A stretch of 64,000 nt of DNA, taken from positions 682,001 to 746,000 of the forward strand of contig NC_014506.1 of the NCBI RefSeq assembly GCF_000147355.1, read 5' to 3'. This document shows, piece after piece, positions 26,006 to 38,699 of this stretch. The translations under genes and the position numbers were made by a program. The DNA is from Sulfurimonas autotrophica DSM 16294. GTDB taxonomy: Bacteria > Campylobacterota > Campylobacteria > Campylobacterales > Sulfurimonadaceae. The notes beneath the pieces are model-generated. The model did not search any database. It saw nothing but the letters and a program-made list of their open reading frames with translations, and had not been told where the DNA came from. The stretch's first letter is position 1. Every line of letters begins with the position of its first letter.

Positions 26006-27646
26006 TTATTTTAATACTAAATAGATAAGTATAAAGTTTATAACTGTCATTATAGTAAAAGCACTCTTATAAAAGAGCAAGGGTGATTTTTCAATTAATG
26101 GAGCATTCTTGATAAAATATGGTTTTACTTTCTGTGGATGAGTAAGCTCATACTTCATTTCAGAGTAGTGCTCATACCTTTGATCTTTGTCTAAGGCAAT
26201 TGAGCGCATTATTACACTGTCTAGCCAATCAGGTATGTTTGAATTATAATGACTTGGTTTTTTAGCTTCTTTGAATGATGGGTTTTGAAACGGTTCTATC
26301 TCGCCATAAGGGTATTTTCCTGTTAAACTAAGGTAAAGTGTAACACCGATAGCAAAAATTTCGGTTGTTTCGCTTATAGTCTCGCCCTGAAATCTCTCAG
26401 GTGCTAAAAAGCTGGGCGTGCCGGCTCGAGATTCTTCAGAAAATATTTCTGTAATACTGCCAAAGTCGATAATTTTATACTCGGTAGTATCTTCACCTGT
26501 CTTAGCAATCATTATGTTGTTTGGTTTAATATCTCCGTGGACAAGGTCATATTTAAGTAAAAATTGAGACATATCTAGAAGTGTTCGCGCAAGTTCTACT
26601 GCATCATCTATGCTTACATGTAAATGTGATGCAAGGTAACTGTTTAGATCATCTGCGTTAAAAAGCTGCATGACATAATATCGGCAGGTTCTGTTTTTTG
26701 GAATAACAGCCTTTGGAAAAAAACTTGCTTTTAGGCGTTTTGCATTCCATGCTTCTTTAACAAATAAATCAAGAATACGGTTATCATCTTTTGCTTCAAT
26801 CGGTGCAAATTTAATCACATATTGTTTTGTCTTTTTACTCGCAAGCCAAGTCCTTTCATTTTGAATGAGAGGTTTTTCGAGTCGATAGCCATCTATTATT
26901 TGACCTGCTTTGAGTGATTGCGGAATATTTAATTTTTGTTGTTTGAGTATCTCTACTTCATCTGCATGCACAATTTCTAAAACCACTGCTGTTGTGTCAT
27001 CTCTGAGAGGATCATTCGCTAGTTTACTTGCTTGCTTCACAAGAGCAATAGCACCTTTTGAAATATTATTTTTAATGATTTCTTCAGATAGTTCATTATA
27101 CAGACCATCACTGCAAAGAAGAATTTTATCGTTTTTTTGGACAATATTTTCAAAATAAAAGGGCTGCACATCTTCACTGATTCCTATAGCTTGGGTAAGG
27201 ACATTTTCATATCCCTCTTCTTGCATTACATGATCAGATGAAAGCTGTGTTAATGAGTCATCCCTGAGCAGATAGACCCTACTGTCTCCAACATTAGCAC
27301 CGTATAAACGGTTTCCTTCTATCACAACAATTGCAAGTGTTGTTACAAGTTCACTGCGTTCATAGTTGAGTTGTGACTCTTTGTAGAGAATAGAATTTAT
27401 AGAATTTATAAACGTCTTTATTGATTTTTCAATTGACCAGGTTTTTGGACGGATTTTAAAATTGTTTATAAGGTATGAAGTGACTCTTTTTGCAGCCTGG
27501 GCACCTTCTTCGGCACTGCCTACACCATCACAGACTATGGCAATGCTCAAGTTGCCAATAGTTTTAATATCGTAAAAATCATCACCTATGAGTTCTTTTT
27601 GTTTTGCAAGAGTGAAACCTGAAGTTTTAATATTACTTTTATTCAT
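26006..27646 (-). CDS. Fused PP2C phosphatase and Ser/Thr protein kinase
   Basis: A 546-residue single-chain switch. Residues 1-230 form a PP2C phosphatase with VCDGVGSAEEGAQAA (Asp40), GDSRVYLLR (120-128), CSDGLYNEL (178-186) and RDDTTAVVLE. Residues 250-515 form a Hanks-type kinase with VIK (Lys279), HGDIKPNN (370-377, HGD in place of HRD), DFG (394-396) and APE (415-417). A single hydrophobic segment ends the chain (about 525-545), so it is probably tail-anchored in the inner membrane. It follows nirA after 74 bases. Similar fused proteins lie by nitrate assimilation genes in other proteobacteria. Confidence 0.92.
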   Translation of the reverse strand: MNKSNIKTSGFTLAKQKELIGDDFYDIKTIGNLSIAIVCDGVGSAEEGAQAAKRVTSYLINNFKIRPKTWSIEKSIKTFINSINSILYKESQLNYERSELVTTLAIVVIEGNRLYGANVGDSRVYLLRDDSLTQLSSDHVMQEEGYENVLTQAIGISEDVQPFYFENIVQKNDKILLCSDGLYNELSEEIIKNNISKGAIALVKQASKLANDPLRDDTTAVVLEIVHADEVEILKQQKLNIPQSLKAGQIIDGYRLEKPLIQNERTWLASKKTKQYVIKFAPIEAKDDNRILDLFVKEAWNAKRLKASFFPKAVIPKNRTCRYYVMQLFNADDLNSYLASHLHVSIDDAVELARTLLDMSQFLLKYDLVHGDIKPNNIMIAKTGEDTTEYKIIDFGSITEIFSEESRAGTPSFLAPERFQGETISETTEIFAIGVTLYLSLTGKYPYGEIEPFQNPSFKEAKKPSHYNSNIPDWLDSVIMRSIALDKDQRYEHYSEMKYELTHPQKVKPYFIKNAPLIEKSPLLFYKSAFTIMTVINFILIYLVLK

Positions 27647-31147: not shown

Positions 31148-31762
31148 ATGACATTTACAAACTCTGCTGAGTTATTGTCTTTTCACTGGGTTGCTTACTC
31201 TATATATGCTGCAATGATTATTTCAGTTGTTGCATGGTTTGGATATAACTTGACAAGAAAAGATGCTAAGTCAGTTTTTCGTATTCCATTTTATTGGTAT
31301 ATGGCATTTTTAGTTGCAGGCGGTGTGGGACACCATATTTTCACGTATAATACAATACCTTGGGTGTCACAAGATATAGACAGACATAATATCAAGCCTG
31401 ATGCAAAGTATGAATTTGAGATTGAAGATCACAAATGGATAGGTTTACCAAAACAGATAGTGATTCAATGCGGTCAAACAGTAGAATTTGATGTGCATAG
31501 TAGGGATTTAGTGTATGGTTTTGGACTATTCCGTCAAAATGGTTCAATGGTTATGCAGATGCAGGTAAATCCGGGAACTGATGTAAATGGAATTTTGGAT
31601 TCTAATGACATACTTTGGACATTTAATCATAATGGTGTTTTTGATCTGACTTCAACTGAATATTCAGGGCCAGAGCAATATAGTGAGAATGGTAAAGATT
31701 TAATGTTGGTAAAAGATTTTGTGAAAGTTATCGGTTGTAGAGATAATGGAGGTATCCAATGA
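31148..31762 (+). CDS. NO reductase (gNOR-like) subunit II, CuA site lost
   Basis: A 204-residue membrane protein with two hydrophobic helices (about 13-33 and 48-65) and a C-terminal cupredoxin domain, the layout of oxidase subunit II. In a CuA-bearing subunit II the loop reads CSExCGxxH; here it reads STEYSGPEQ (169-177), so both cysteines are serine and the histidine is glutamine. CuA should be absent. A GGAG ribosome site lies before the ATG. The gene overlaps the catalytic subunit gene by 4 bases, so the two subunits are made together. Confidence 0.82.
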   Translation: MTFTNSAELLSFHWVAYSIYAAMIISVVAWFGYNLTRKDAKSVFRIPFYWYMAFLVAGGVGHHIFTYNTIPWVSQDIDRHNIKPDAKYEFEIEDHKWIGLPKQIVIQCGQTVEFDVHSRDLVYGFGLFRQNGSMVMQMQVNPGTDVNGILDSNDILWTFNHNGVFDLTSTEYSGPEQYSENGKDLMLVKDFVKVIGCRDNGGIQ

Positions 31763-33447
31763 GTTATATAAAAACATTAGTAAATGGTACAAATTTTGAC
31801 CATACGAGCTTAAATGCTTTGCAGAAGGTTACGCTTAGACCAGTTGTAATGGCATTTTTATTTTATGGATTAGTAGCTCTTGAGGGTATGATTATGAGAA
31901 TGGTTGAAGTTGGTCATGTGCCACTTAATCCACTTCCTGAACAATTTTTTCATCCAGGGCACTTCTTCTCTATTATGACGGTACATCCGATTGTGGGAAT
32001 TTTCGGTTCAACGTATCAGTTGGTCTTTGGTGCTTTCACTTTCTTGGTACCGTATCTTACAAAGAAACCGCTTTACAGTGTGAAACTTGCAAATATAACA
32101 TGGCTGCTAATCACAATAGGAACGGCACTTGCATGGATTGCTGCGTTTGTATGGCAGTATGCACCGCTTTATACACTTTACTGGCCACTTCCTGCTGATA
32201 CGCATCAGTTTAATGTGATAGGTGGTATTGTGTTTATCTTAGGTATTGCTTTAATAATGGCTGGTACTTTGGGATTTATTTATAATATCTATGCCACGAT
32301 TTTTGCTCGTGTTGGTGTTCATAAAAACAAAACAACAAAAGAACTTTTAATATCTGGCTTTGGTATAGATGGATTCTTAAACCTTATTAATAAGCTTCGC
32401 GGCAAGCAGCCATATACAAAAGAACCTGCACTTGCTCTTCCTGTTGTTGCTATCTTTCGTGGTACGGTTGATACATTTTTAGACGCACTTGTCATTTTAG
32501 GTGCAGGAATTTTAATTTTAGTTTATCTTCTCTTTGATGCAGGTGGACATGTTCTTGATGTAATAGCGATAGATGCTCTTTTATATAAAAACTTTTTTTG
32601 GTGGGGTCTTGATCTTGTTGCTGATGGTCTTGTACTGATTTATGTTGCAGGAAGTTGGTATTTACTTGCTACTTTAATTACTGGACAAAAACTTTTTATG
32701 GAAAATGTTGCTCGTGCTGCGTTAATGCTTGAGCTTTTAGTTTCATGGATGGTTTGGTCGCATCATTTACTTGCCGATCAGGGACAGCCTGAAATGATGA
32801 AACTGATTTCGGGTGAGATGGTTACTGCGTTTGAGCTTCTCACACAGGGACTCGCACTTTTTATTACACTAGTTACTTTATGGAAGGCACGTCCTCTTAA
32901 GATGACTATGGAGTTAAAATATCTTCTTGGCGGTTTGGTAGGTTTTGGTTTAGCTGTGCCTGCTGCAATTATTCAAGCAGATATGGGTATGAATAGAGTT
33001 TTACATAATACTCAATGGATTATTGGTGCTCATGTGCATATTGCTCTTATTGTTGGACTGTATATGACACTTTACAGTGCTGTATATGTTTTATGGCCAC
33101 TTGTAACAAATGATACAAAACTGTATTCTCATAAACTTGCTAATACGCACTTTTGGTTACATCTAATCGGCGGTATAGGTATGGGAGCATTTATGGGAAT
33201 GGCAGGTCTTGATGGTATGCTTCGCCGCCACTTATATGTAGATGGACAATTTAATCCAGATATGATATTTGCGGCTATCTTTGGAACTATGTTACTTGTT
33301 GCATGGGCAGTATTTTTATACAATATAATTATGAGTGTTGGTATCAAAGGTTTAATTGGTATATTCTTACCAGCAGATGATAAAACTGCTTCTTATGGAA
33401 TAGATGAAGAAATAGAACCGGCAGATGATCCTGCATTTGCAAAGTAA
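31759..33447 (+). CDS. NO reductase (gNOR-like) catalytic subunit I
   Basis: A 562-residue haem-copper superfamily subunit with about 12-14 membrane helices. Candidate haem ligands are His76 (TVHPIVG) and His425/His427 (GAHVHIAL); His335-His336 (WSHHLLAD) are metal ligands. Helix VI reads WWGLDLVADG (281-290). Against WWVVHLWVEG of cytochrome c NO reductases, the FeB His becomes Asp285 and the conserved Glu becomes Asp289. The Tyr of HPEVY oxidases is missing. This fits the gNOR group noted in Sulfurimonas. Reduction of 2 NO to N2O is inferred from the family. Confidence 0.8.
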   Translation: MSYIKTLVNGTNFDHTSLNALQKVTLRPVVMAFLFYGLVALEGMIMRMVEVGHVPLNPLPEQFFHPGHFFSIMTVHPIVGIFGSTYQLVFGAFTFLVPYLTKKPLYSVKLANITWLLITIGTALAWIAAFVWQYAPLYTLYWPLPADTHQFNVIGGIVFILGIALIMAGTLGFIYNIYATIFARVGVHKNKTTKELLISGFGIDGFLNLINKLRGKQPYTKEPALALPVVAIFRGTVDTFLDALVILGAGILILVYLLFDAGGHVLDVIAIDALLYKNFFWWGLDLVADGLVLIYVAGSWYLLATLITGQKLFMENVARAALMLELLVSWMVWSHHLLADQGQPEMMKLISGEMVTAFELLTQGLALFITLVTLWKARPLKMTMELKYLLGGLVGFGLAVPAAIIQADMGMNRVLHNTQWIIGAHVHIALIVGLYMTLYSAVYVLWPLVTNDTKLYSHKLANTHFWLHLIGGIGMGAFMGMAGLDGMLRRHLYVDGQFNPDMIFAAIFGTMLLVAWAVFLYNIIMSVGIKGLIGIFLPADDKTASYGIDEEIEPADDPAFAK

Positions 33448-33569: not shown

Positions 33570-34175
33570 TTGATAAACTTAGAAAGAGTTGCACGTGAAA
33601 TAAAGACTATTGGACTTTATGATTTGGTTTTGCAAGATGTGCAAAGAATTGCTGGAAAAAATAGAGTAAATGAAGAAGAAATTCTTCAAATACTAGATAA
33701 AACCCCGGAAATACTAAAAGATTATATGCAAACGAATGTTGAATATAATTTAAGTAATATACATTTAAAAGATATAGAATTAGATGATTTAAAAGATGAT
33801 TGCAAATTAAAAGCAATACAAATAAATGAAAATTTAGCAAAGCTTAAAGAACTTGAAAAATATACACTTGATTTTGAACAAAGTGCTACGCTTGTCATCA
33901 TTTTTTCAATTGAATTTTTTGTACTTTTTTCTGTGCAGTATTTTATAGTGTTACTGAATCTTAAAGATTGGCAATGGTGGATATATACACTTTTCGCATC
34001 TTCTGTGGCAATAGCTTACTGGTATGGTAAAAAACAGAGCAAACTCTATGAGAAAAATAAAAAAAAATATGATGAACTTTATATTGAAACATTAAAGATA
34101 ATAGAAGAGCTTGAAAATAATAGTTGTATTAAAAAAAGTGATCTTTTAATTTCGGAGTGTGAAGAACATGTCTAA
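33570..34175 (+). CDS. Unknown protein with two membrane helices
   Basis: A 201-residue protein starting at TTG, preceded by AGGAAAAAATAG as ribosome site. The first 100 residues are charged and helical, and two hydrophobic segments lie at about 107-126 and 134-149. A basic, lysine-rich tail with CEEHV follows. I do not recognise a family. It follows the NO reductase by 120 bases and overlaps the next gene by 17 bases. A role linked to NO reductase or nitrate reductase assembly is only a guess from position. Confidence 0.6.
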   Translation: MINLERVAREIKTIGLYDLVLQDVQRIAGKNRVNEEEILQILDKTPEILKDYMQTNVEYNLSNIHLKDIELDDLKDDCKLKAIQINENLAKLKELEKYTLDFEQSATLVIIFSIEFFVLFSVQYFIVLLNLKDWQWWIYTLFASSVAIAYWYGKKQSKLYEKNKKKYDELYIETLKIIEELENNSCIKKSDLLISECEEHV

Positions 34176-34656
34176 GCAAATAGAGATTAATTTTATATGG
34201 AATCAAGAATTGGCTTTAATAACAAGTAAACTCTATTATGATTATGATATGAGACATTCCAATAAAAGATATATAGGATGGTTTTTTGTAGGCTTGGTTC
34301 AATTTGGAATTGTTGGAGCGCTAAAGCATGATAGTTACGGTCTGCTTTATGCTTCAACTTTTTTAGTTTTGTACTGGTATTATGGTAGATGGTATTTACG
34401 AAAAAGGATGCTATTAAACTTTTATAAGAAAAAGAGTCCCAAAAATGCACACATTCATTTTATAGTAAAGGATGATGGCTTGCATGGTGATAATGATTTG
34501 ATTAGTTGGAATGATATTCATAAAGTTATAAAACTTGATAAGGGCATTTTAATACAAAGTATACAAAATACATTGTTCTTTGAGAATTCTGCCTTTAAAT
34601 CATCTGATGATAGAATGAAATTTATAGAGATTACTAAAGAAAAAGGCAAAATTTAA
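34159..34656 (+). CDS. YcxB-like membrane protein
   Basis: A 165-residue protein (or 162 from the second ATG at 34168). An N-terminal strand region is followed by two close hydrophobic segments (about 40-70) and a C-terminal soluble domain with FIVKDDGLHGDNDLISWNDI and ILIQSIQNTLFF, a pattern resembling YcxB-like proteins. The function of that family is unknown to me. It overlaps the preceding gene by 17 bases, and its stop overlaps the ATG of the following small gene. Confidence 0.6.
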   Translation: MKNMSKQIEINFIWNQELALITSKLYYDYDMRHSNKRYIGWFFVGLVQFGIVGALKHDSYGLLYASTFLVLYWYYGRWYLRKRMLLNFYKKKSPKNAHIHFIVKDDGLHGDNDLISWNDIHKVIKLDKGILIQSIQNTLFFENSAFKSSDDRMKFIEITKEKGKI

Positions 34657-34754: not shown

Positions 34755-34830
34755 AAATTAAACAGAAAATTGCAAAAATATTCATTTACATAGAGTATGA
34801 TTTCATCACTTATATATGGAGAATACTTAC

Positions 34831-36396
34831 ATGCAAACACCCCTAGAGAATTTTATAGATTACAAAGCAGATACAGGTATGCAATGTGGTAATTATTCAA
34901 TAGATATTCCGCCTTTAAAAGAGGGTGAACAGTACCGTTTTCACTTTGATGCTGTTGCTTGTGTCGGATGTAGATGTTGTGAAGTTGCATGTAATGAGCA
35001 AAATAATAACCCAGCCGATATAAAATGGCGTCGTGTTGGCGAAATGGAAGGTGGTGATTTTCCTGCATTTACACAGATGTTAAATTCCATGAGCTGTAAT
35101 CATTGTATAGATCCAGAGTGCTTGATAGGATGTCCAACTGAATCTTATATCAAAATAGCAGAAACAGGTATTGTTGTGCATGATGATGATACTTGTATAG
35201 GTTGTCAATACTGTACATGGAATTGTCCTTATGGTGTTCCTGTATTTCATGAGGAGAGAAATATTGTTACAAAATGTCATATGTGTCATGAAAGACTCGA
35301 TGTTGAAGAATCTCCAGCTTGTGTTCAAGCTTGTCCAGCCGGTGCAATTGAAATTGAAGTCGTCAATGTAGAAGAGTGGTTGAATCGTGATATTGATGAA
35401 CAGGCAAATATGCCGTTTTTACCTGATGCGAGAATTACCAATTCAACAACACGCTATACTCTCCCTGATACTCTTCCTGATAATATGAAAGAGATGGATG
35501 AACATATTTTAAAACCAGCACATAAAGAACTTCCTCTTGTATTTATGACGGTTCTGACACAAATTTCGCTTGGTGGTTTTTTAGCACTCTTTTTAGGTGA
35601 TTTTATGAGTCTGTTCGGATTTGAGAGTACAAATTGGATAATGGCACTGCTTGTGATGCTTCCTGCAGCTGTTGGTCTGCCTCTTTCAGCTTTACACCTG
35701 GGACGACCATTTTTAGCAATAACTGCTATGAAAAATATAAAAACCTCATGGCTTTCGCGTGAAGCATTAGCTCTTGGCGTCTTTACAGGACTTATGACAG
35801 CTGTTGTTGCAAGTTACTTTTTTGAGTTCTCTACTCTTTTACGGCTTATACTTGAAGCAGTTACGCTGACTATAGGAATTTATGGAATTTATGCACAAAG
35901 TATGATTTATCGTATTCGCGCGCGTCCTTCATGGAACAGAATAACAACAAACTTTAAATTTTTTGGAGTGGCTTATATTGGGGTGTTCTTAGTGGCATTT
36001 ATGAGTAGTGTATCAAGTGTGCATGAAGCGATTATTCCTCTGACTACTCTGGGTATGCTCGGTTCATTGGCACAACTGTTCTTCTCCTATGAAGATATAA
36101 GAACACTCGATACAAAAGATAATGCATATCAATTACAACGTACAAAAAGACTTTTAAATGAAAATTTTAAAAATATTAAACTAATTCGTTTTACAAGCTT
36201 GATAGCAGGCGGTGTTATTTTACCTCTGCTTGCTTTAATTTTTGTAAGTGCGGGTTTTATAACAGCTGCATCGGTGATACTCTTTTTGGCAATAGTTATT
36301 GCTTTTATGAGTGAGATAAGTGACAGGTTTTTATTTTACACGACAGTAGTTCCACTGGGTATGGCAGGTGGATTTTTTGTTGGCAAACAGCGTTAG
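34831..36396 (+). CDS. Fused four-cluster ferredoxin and DmsC-like membrane anchor
   Basis: About 521 residues. The first 190 carry four cysteine clusters of the DmsB/NrfC type, including CVGCRCCEVAC, CNHCIDPECLIGC, CIGCQYCTWNCPYG and CHMC...CVQACPAG. The rest has about eight membrane helices of the DmsC type (LPLSALHLGRPFLA). Fusion of the two, usually separate, subunits is notable. No Tat or Sec signal is present, so the clusters should face the cytoplasm. I prefer the ATG at 34831, preceded by GGAGAAT, over 34816, which has no ribosome site. It probably passes quinol electrons to the following nitrate reductase. Confidence 0.85.
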   Translation: MQTPLENFIDYKADTGMQCGNYSIDIPPLKEGEQYRFHFDAVACVGCRCCEVACNEQNNNPADIKWRRVGEMEGGDFPAFTQMLNSMSCNHCIDPECLIGCPTESYIKIAETGIVVHDDDTCIGCQYCTWNCPYGVPVFHEERNIVTKCHMCHERLDVEESPACVQACPAGAIEIEVVNVEEWLNRDIDEQANMPFLPDARITNSTTRYTLPDTLPDNMKEMDEHILKPAHKELPLVFMTVLTQISLGGFLALFLGDFMSLFGFESTNWIMALLVMLPAAVGLPLSALHLGRPFLAITAMKNIKTSWLSREALALGVFTGLMTAVVASYFFEFSTLLRLILEAVTLTIGIYGIYAQSMIYRIRARPSWNRITTNFKFFGVAYIGVFLVAFMSSVSSVHEAIIPLTTLGMLGSLAQLFFSYEDIRTLDTKDNAYQLQRTKRLLNENFKNIKLIRFTSLIAGGVILPLLALIFVSAGFITAASVILFLAIVIAFMSEISDRFLFYTTVVPLGMAGGFFVGKQR

Positions 36397-36410
36397 AGAA
36401 AGGAATTGTG

Positions 36411-38699
36411 ATGATAACTAAAATAAAAGATTTTTTGGGTTTTGATATAAAAGAGGAGAAATATAAACTTTCTCATGATGATACATTTGGGATGATAGCT
36501 GATGAAAAAAAACCAGATAAATGGGTTTTTTCAACCTGTGGATATTGCGGTGTTGGTTGCGGTCTTTACATTGGTGTTAAAGATGGCAAAGCAGTCTATA
36601 CAAAAGGAAACCCAAAACACTTTGTTAATCAGGGTACACTTTGTCCAAAAGGTTTGAGCGAGCACCAAATGATAAACTCTCCGCATAGAATCCAAACACC
36701 GCTTATTAAACGTAATGGAGAGTTACAAAGTGTAACATGGGATGAAGCTTTTACAAAAGTGAGCAATGAATTTAAAAGAATTCAAAAAGAGCATGGAAAC
36801 AAAGCTGTATCAGTTATAGGAACAGGGCAGTTTTTGACAGAAGAGTTCTATACTTTGGGCAAATTTGTCCAATTGGGACTTCGTACAAATAATTATGACG
36901 GAAATACCACTTTATGTATGGCATCAGCCGTTATGGGGTATAAACAGTCACTCGGTAGTGACGGTCCTACAAGCTCTTATGAAGATTTTGAACACGCAGA
37001 CACCATATTTTTGGTCGGGGCAAATATTGCAGACAATCATCCAATATTAACCTTACATGTAAACAAGAATCCAAAGAAAAAAGTGATAGTTATTGACCCT
37101 AGAGCGTCAAAGACATCACAAATGGCTGATGTGTATGTGCCTGTAAGGCCTCGCACCGATTTGGCGCTTTATAATGGTTTGGCATACATTGTGTTAGAAC
37201 AGGGATGGGAAGATGAAGGGTATATAAAAGCAAATACAAACGGTTTGAAAGAACTGAAAAAACACCTGCAGGATTATCCGCCTCAAGAAGTGGCAAATAT
37301 TACGGGTATTGATGTAAAAACTTTGTATGAACTTGCGCGTGAATTTGTCTCAAATGAAAAAGTGATCACAGGTTGGACGATGGGAATAAATCAGTCATTT
37401 ATGGGAACAGATACGGTCAGTGCAATCATTAATCTGCACCTTTTAACCGGGCATATCGGGCGTGAGGGAACAGGTCCTTTTAGTATTACAGGGCAGTGTA
37501 ATGCTATGGGTACAAGAGAGACAGGGTTTACTTCATCTCTGCCGGGATATAGAAATTACGGAGATGAAAAGGCTTTAAAAGAGTATGCTCAAATTGTTAA
37601 TGTTCCGCAAGATATTATTCCACGTGAGCGTGGATACAAATATGCTGAAATAATTGATGCAATAGACAGAGGAGAGATAAAAGCACTTTGGATAACGGCT
37701 ACAAACCCACTGGTCTCTTTTGTAAATCAGGATAAATTGCGTAAAACTCTGGCAAAACTTGATTTGCTCGTCGTACAGGATGCATTTTTAGGTGATACCG
37801 CACAAATAGCGGATGTAGTTTTTGCAGCAGCTACATGGGGTGAAAAAGAGGGTGTTTACACCAATAGTGAAAGACGATGCAACAAAGCAAATAAGGCAGT
37901 AGAACCTATCGGAGAAGCAAAAAGTGATTTTGATATCATAATAGAATTTTCTAAATATTTTGAAGGGGTCAATGAAATGCTCTTTCCAAATTGGAGTGAA
38001 CCTAGAGATGCTTTTGAAGAGTGGAAAAAAGTCTCAAAAGGGCAGCTGTGTGATTACAGCGGTATGAGTTATGAGCTTATAGAAGAACTTGGCGGGATTC
38101 AATGGCCTTGTAATGAAGAGCACCCAAAAGGAACGAAAAGACTCTACTCTTCTGATACTCCATTTAGAACAGCCGATAAAAAAGCGAATCTGGTTTGTGC
38201 AGAGTGGTATCCGATGGCAGAGCCTGTCAGCCCTGAGTTTCCGGTGATTTTAAATACCGGGCGTACGGTTGAGCAGTGGCATACCCGTACCAAAACGAGA
38301 GATATAGCTATACTTGATAACCTTGCTCCTGAAGCGTGGGTGGATATATCGCCAATAGATGCACAAAAACTGAAGGTTAAAAGTGGAGACAGGATGAGTC
38401 TTTCATCTCCTCGCGGGCGGGTTGATGATGTTATAGTTAGAGTGACATCAAGTGTACGAGAAGGGACAGTTTTTGTTCCATTTCATTTTAATGAGCAACT
38501 CGTGAACACTTTGACAAATGAAAGTTTTTGTCCAAAATCAGGTGAACCAAATTTTAAACAAACGGCTATTCAACTTCATTCTGTTGAGGTTCCTGAGGGT
38601 TTAACAATTGAAAAAGAACAGTCCAGCGGAGCTATAGCACACCATAAAGTAGTCTATGAGGGTGTTACGCATAAGGAAAAAGAGGACGTAAAAGTATAA
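36411..38699 (+). CDS. Assimilatory-type nitrate reductase catalytic subunit
   Basis: A 762-residue molybdenum bis-MGD enzyme. The Fe4S4 site reads STCGYCGVGC (Cys 44, 47 and 51 counting from the upstream GTG) with LCPKG (Cys79). The molybdenum ligand is the cysteine of TTLCMAS (about 170). FSITGQCNAMG and LNTGRTVEQWHTRTKTR fit the NarB/NasA/NasC group. There is no Tat signal, so it is cytoplasmic. ATG 36411 has AAAGGA at good spacing; GTG 36408 is the alternative. It lies 14 bases after the DmsBC-like fusion, its likely electron donor. Formate dehydrogenase is less likely. Confidence 0.85.
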   Translation: MITKIKDFLGFDIKEEKYKLSHDDTFGMIADEKKPDKWVFSTCGYCGVGCGLYIGVKDGKAVYTKGNPKHFVNQGTLCPKGLSEHQMINSPHRIQTPLIKRNGELQSVTWDEAFTKVSNEFKRIQKEHGNKAVSVIGTGQFLTEEFYTLGKFVQLGLRTNNYDGNTTLCMASAVMGYKQSLGSDGPTSSYEDFEHADTIFLVGANIADNHPILTLHVNKNPKKKVIVIDPRASKTSQMADVYVPVRPRTDLALYNGLAYIVLEQGWEDEGYIKANTNGLKELKKHLQDYPPQEVANITGIDVKTLYELAREFVSNEKVITGWTMGINQSFMGTDTVSAIINLHLLTGHIGREGTGPFSITGQCNAMGTRETGFTSSLPGYRNYGDEKALKEYAQIVNVPQDIIPRERGYKYAEIIDAIDRGEIKALWITATNPLVSFVNQDKLRKTLAKLDLLVVQDAFLGDTAQIADVVFAAATWGEKEGVYTNSERRCNKANKAVEPIGEAKSDFDIIIEFSKYFEGVNEMLFPNWSEPRDAFEEWKKVSKGQLCDYSGMSYELIEELGGIQWPCNEEHPKGTKRLYSSDTPFRTADKKANLVCAEWYPMAEPVSPEFPVILNTGRTVEQWHTRTKTRDIAILDNLAPEAWVDISPIDAQKLKVKSGDRMSLSSPRGRVDDVIVRVTSSVREGTVFVPFHFNEQLVNTLTNESFCPKSGEPNFKQTAIQLHSVEVPEGLTIEKEQSSGAIAHHKVVYEGVTHKEKEDVKV

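Follow-up and report, generated by a model that had tools for sequence, protein, structure and literature searches.

The window analysed here, a stretch of 64,000 nucleotides from Sulfurimonas autotrophica, carries a gene whose product, judged from its sequence, is an ordinary member of the already named, little-studied gNOR family of the HCO superfamily. Its helix VI has aspartate both at the CuB/FeB histidine position and at the position of the oxidase catalytic tyrosine or cNOR glutamate, and the alignments show this two-Asp change to be genuine and without exception in the gNOR group of the Campylobacterota. The protein is most probably the catalytic subunit of a nitric oxide reductase that is additional to cNOR and consumes the NO formed by nitrite reduction. 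The genes and residues discussed are listed in Table 1.

Table 1. Features of the gNOR locus, with their positions in the window and the basis on which each was assigned.
Feature	Position	Strand	Basis
Predicted gNOR subunit II, 204 aa, two N-terminal TM helices and cupredoxin domain without CuA ligands	31148..31762	+	locus conservation, alignment, model
Predicted gNOR subunit I, HCO superfamily catalytic subunit	31759..33447	+	562-codon ORF; COX1 match; HCO-like model
His76, low-spin haem ligand, helix II	31984..31986	+	alignment; conservation
Helix VI motif WWGLDLVADG, W281-G290	32599..32628	+	near-invariant in homologues
Asp285, CuB/FeB histidine position of helix VI	32611..32613	+	gap-free alignments with cNOR and one ba3 chain; invariant
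Asp289, catalytic Tyr (oxidase) or FeB Glu (cNOR) position	32623..32625	+	alignments; invariant
His335-His336, retained non-haem metal ligands	32761..32766	+	opposite the HH pair in every family compared; invariant
Glu359, helix VIII	32833..32835	+	aligned with cNOR helix VIII Glu; invariant
His425 (high-spin haem) and His427 (low-spin haem), helix X	33031..33039	+	aligned with HxH of all families; conservation
Putative accessory membrane protein, 201 aa, highly conserved hydrophobic segment FSIEFFVLFSVQYFIVLL	33570..34175	+	78/101 loci
Second putative accessory membrane protein, marginal YcxB-like C-terminal domain	34159..34656	+	72/101 loci

The Pfam family COX1 covers residues 24-510 of subunit I (E=2.9e-50), and the strand opposite the gene has no long frame, with stops throughout. 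None of the curated NCBIfam equivalogs matched subunit I at its own cut-off, and the top PDB sequence matches found with phmmer were the Thermus ba3 oxidases (E about 6e-6). Fold comparison of the AlphaFold model returned HCO subunit I, with the NO reductase 4xyd (Z 31.6) level with the oxidases. The mean pLDDT of this model is 69, falling below 50 at residues 276-284, 335-351 and 406-420, so that the model is too weak around the site to show the geometry of the metal ligands.

Like known gNOR, the locus encodes an HCO subunit I with three haem-ligand histidines and an adjacent histidine pair (from the Pfam match and the aligned conserved histidines), and has an aspartate, the invariant D289, in place of the active-site Tyr or Glu. 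The second subunit is a cupredoxin and not a haem c protein, as indicated by its model, a CuA-domain match and the absence of CxxCH, and no canonical proton channel is visible in the subunit I sequence, which is the only source for this last point. Nothing was found that sets subunit I apart from known gNOR. It shares with cNOR (NorBC) the haem arrangement, the two adjacent histidines, a glutamate in helix VIII and the presumed NO chemistry, but cNOR has three histidines and a glutamate at FeB and the haem c subunit NorC, whereas here aspartate occupies both the His and the Glu position and the partner is a CuA-less cupredoxin. The A/B oxygen reductases have three histidines at CuB and a cross-linked tyrosine, where this protein has D285 and D289, and the CuA of cytochrome c-type oxygen reductases is missing from subunit II, its Cys and His ligands being replaced.

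The gNOR assignment made in the original prediction agrees with Table A4 of PMC8756737, which gives D as the gNOR active-site residue, records no proton channel, names Sulfurimonas, Sulfurovum and Persephonella, and tabulates Sievert et al. 2008 and Hemp and Gennis 2008 as the gNOR references. The family has also been reported in Methylomirabilis (PMC6094997). gNOR and its diagnostic aspartate are already published, and what is added here is the CuA-less subunit II, E359, the tree placement on the A/B side, the co-occurrence with NirS and cNOR, and two companion genes. Murali et al. (PNAS, 2024) reportedly described novel NOR active sites, gNOR included. The His-to-Asp ligand change, the helix VIII glutamate and the two accessory genes were undescribed in the gNOR literature searched, which is secondary to the original accounts of Sievert 2008 and Murali 2024, and the same search returned no gNOR biochemistry and no measured effect of the two-Asp site.

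The position of the two aspartates was examined from the spacing within helix VI. The metal-ligand histidine of the A-type, B-type, cbb3 and cNOR sequences compared lies three residues after a conserved aromatic, which corresponds to W282; counted from this residue, +3 is D285 and +7 is D289, where oxidases carry tyrosine and cNOR glutamate. Helix VI aligns gap-free when its profile is compared with the cNOR that this genome encodes, and also in the phmmer alignment with the ba3 chain 4n4y. Profile-profile comparison with single cNOR sequences reached a probability of only about 1-3%, yet it is the source of the gap-free helix VI alignment. Both phmmer against 1ehk and MAFFT introduce a one-residue gap that sets Leu284, and not Asp285, opposite the oxidase histidine; this arrangement was disfavoured because it breaks the spacing common to the families, and the gap-free version is to this extent an alignment choice. 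Another histidine of helix VI serving as the ligand, which the original prediction had itself raised as the observation that would count against it, was rejected, as helix VI contains no histidine under any alignment. The motif WWGLDLVADG with Asp285 and Asp289 is confirmed by the ORF translation and by the invariance of both aspartates in homologues, and the retained ligands named alongside it (His 335-336 and haem His 76, 425 and 427) are histidine at all five positions.

Conservation was determined in two sets of homologues. In the first, made up of loci retrieved through homology searches, all homologues that span the sites (97/97) carry D285, D289, H335 and H336, and H76 is found in 99/99, H425 in 98/98 and H427 in 97/98. 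The second was sampled in part evenly over the phylum and reaches down to 58% identity; none of the seven positions varies in the 37-38 distinct sequences that include it, and both aspartates occur in 37/37. This invariance, in more than 100 homologues, excludes sequencing error and chance as the source of the Asp pair, and a local oddity was likewise rejected. The homologues with both aspartates are all in Campylobacterota, and those from named Sulfurimonas and Sulfurovum records are 86-95% identical to subunit I. Of 249 near-complete genomes of Campylobacterota, 27, from several families, have a strong subunit I match (E below 1e-200), so that the earlier description of gNOR as present in Sulfurimonas and a few others holds for Sulfurimonas but sets the remainder too low. 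Weaker matches in the 249 genomes cover the C-terminal part only, with E near 1e-8 to 1e-12, and are apparently ordinary subunits of oxidases. No relative was found in the viral contigs searched.

The subunit II gene overlaps the start of subunit I by 4 bases and is found near it in 95/101 loci. In its model (pLDDT 83), subunit II consists of two transmembrane helices plus a cupredoxin domain, and the best-matching structures were the CuA domain of ba3 and the ba3 and bo3 subunits II. The CuA Cys and His ligands are replaced in all aligned subunit II sequences (STEYSGP; Y123). A cupredoxin-fold subunit II without CuA is also present in the bo3 quinol oxidase, although that enzyme has a His/Tyr active site and D and K channels, which gNOR does not. 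As subunit II is without CuA ligands, the electron donor of gNOR is likely to be quinol, and PMC8906906 annotates gNOR as quinone-oxidising and non-electrogenic. Subunit II His13 and His62-His63 are invariant and are located in or at the end of membrane helices; the pair (GVGHHIFTYN; 31331-31336, + strand) lies at the end of the second helix and is a candidate quinol or haem contact.

The substrate, metal, electron donor and physiological role that we infer are as follows. gNOR would be a membrane nitric oxide reductase of two subunits, or possibly of three or four. Its electrons would probably come from menaquinol, given that subunit II has lost CuA; they would enter the low-spin haem (His76/His427) and move on to the high-spin haem (His425) and to a non-haem metal with His335, His336, Asp285 and Asp289 as its ligands. 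At this site two NO would be converted to N2O. The two carboxylate ligands make iron the likeliest metal, and they should lower its potential. The original prediction had concluded that the non-haem metal site is a different one, which is sound as an argument from ligand chemistry and goes beyond what can be read in the sequence itself. In S. autotrophica this enzyme would operate beside the canonical cNOR, most likely consuming NO from nitrite reduction. A natural 2-His/2-Asp site would test for what purpose cNOR requires its three histidines plus glutamate, and whether a pair of carboxylates is enough to select iron over copper. NO reductases produce N2O, a strong greenhouse gas, and gNOR is a common enzyme among the Campylobacterota, a phylum with many members from vents.

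The setting of gNOR in the window is a nitrate-assimilation cluster, as it is located between NirA-like and NarK genes upstream (−) and a DmsBC-like/NasA-like pair downstream (+). Nitrate-assimilation genes are also its commonest recognisable neighbours, at 39/101 loci, and recur in a divergent clade (L155, L159, L161 and L165-L167). Together with the nearly constant presence of a canonical cNOR, this arrangement could point to gNOR as a means of NO detoxification for nitrate assimilation and not as a part of respiratory denitrification, the NO leaking from the cytoplasmic reduction of nitrite by NirA or diffusing inward, with little role in energy conservation. Such a role is possible but somewhat doubtful, as adjacency need not equal shared function and the wider genomic association points to nitrite reduction. 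Among 60 relatives, NirS was present in 18/19 gNOR genomes against 10/41 others (Fisher p=4e-7, uncorrected for phylogeny), and the canonical cNOR gave the same counts, 18/19 against 10/41 (p=4e-7, again uncorrected); a single gNOR genome, G058, is without both NirS and cNOR. Furthermore, nirS, nirJ, nirF and norCB genes flank 13/101 loci, and at two loci (L150 and L142) the gNOR gene is inside or beside a nirS-norCB-nirJ island. An NO reductase working next to cNOR on the NO from nitrite reduction remains the preferred reading. Against it stand the cNOR that gNOR genomes usually have already, which leaves no gap in NO reduction that gNOR must close, the predominance of nitrate-assimilation genes over nir/nor genes among the neighbours, and genome G058. 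The genome of S. autotrophica itself encodes NirS, a canonical NorB beside NirS, a second NorB, NosZ and one cbb3 oxidase. The second NorB-like gene (L105, at about 393098-394414 of the genome) encodes 461 aa with 41% identity to the NirS-linked NorB, has the canonical helix VI HLWVEATWE and is preceded by a NorC gene; with it, this genome has three NO-reductase-type subunits I.

The resemblance of subunit I to the oxidases was considered separately. It has an RR motif (489-490) and an HHxxxD pattern like those of oxidases, and with the ba3-type (B-family) oxygen reductases in particular it shares the RR motif, the HHxxAD motif and a cupredoxin subunit II. In a tree of 29 sequences, gNOR and the A/B oxidases are split from cNOR and cbb3 with support of 99/97, so that cNOR and gNOR stand on opposite sides of a well-supported branch; the branches are however long, which limits what placement in the tree can say about function. 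These features would fit an oxygen reductase, namely a quinol oxidase, whose active site is unusual, but the residues such an enzyme depends on are absent. The ba3-type keeps the helix VI histidine and tyrosine, the K-channel tyrosines and CuA, and gNOR has none of these. At the channel positions, subunit I has V287 for the A-type helix VI glutamate, A366 for the A-type helix VIII lysine, and V296 and W300 for the ba3 channel tyrosines. E359 aligns with the glutamate of the cNOR ALEP/LEV segment, where the A, B and cbb3 oxidases compared have hydrophobic residues. The loss of the catalytic tyrosine, the A-type Glu and Lys and the ba3 channel tyrosines is consistent with a non-pumping NO reductase. 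As the cross-linked Tyr and the K- and D-channel residues are absent, aspartate replaces a CuB histidine, the helix VIII glutamate is NOR-like and the genome already has a cbb3 oxidase, an oxygen reductase was rejected as highly improbable. Given that gNOR falls on the A/B oxidase side of the tree, its NOR-like glutamate may be convergent.

That subunit I has lost its non-haem metal or its catalysis and is now a sensor or a relic could be proposed from the one missing CuB/FeB histidine, but is scarcely credible, as the Asp pair, the metal histidines and the haem histidines are invariant to 58% identity (with one exception at H427) and this invariance makes a decaying site unlikely.

The two genes that follow subunit I may belong to the same system. 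A homologue of the first (33570..34175) was detected in 15/19 gNOR-bearing relatives and in 0/41 others, with the similarity weak (27-28% identity) in 2 of those 15 genomes. Its transmembrane segment is extremely conserved; the copy in the window has no match in Pfam or NCBIfam, and a comparison of the protein's alignment with solved structures gave nothing convincing. The C-terminal domain of the second resembles PF14317 at E=0.0015, below the cut-off. We infer that the products are accessory or assembly proteins. In cNOR, FeB is inserted by NorQ and NorD (PMC9976466); the Pfam and NCBIfam searches gave no match between the two genes and families of this kind. The companion genes provide a concrete co-expression set with gNOR. 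A more far-reaching proposal would be a four-protein NO reductase with a 2-His/2-Asp iron, derived from oxygen reductases independently of cNOR, with a convergent helix VIII glutamate, dependent on the two companions for assembly or electron input, and having as its usual task NO removal coupled to nitrate assimilation; taken as a whole, this is unlikely.

Two further observations were made on the genes flanking the locus. Downstream, a DmsB-like iron-sulfur protein is fused to a DmsC-like membrane anchor (34816-36396, +) and adjoins an assimilatory-type NasA gene (36408-38699); as the quinol-linked partner of a nitrate reductase, such a fusion would be unusual. On the other side, a fused PP2C phosphatase/protein-kinase-like gene (STK; 26006-27646, −) adjoins NirA-NarK, and in many relatives it again lies next to NarK or NirA, suggesting a linkage to nitrate assimilation.
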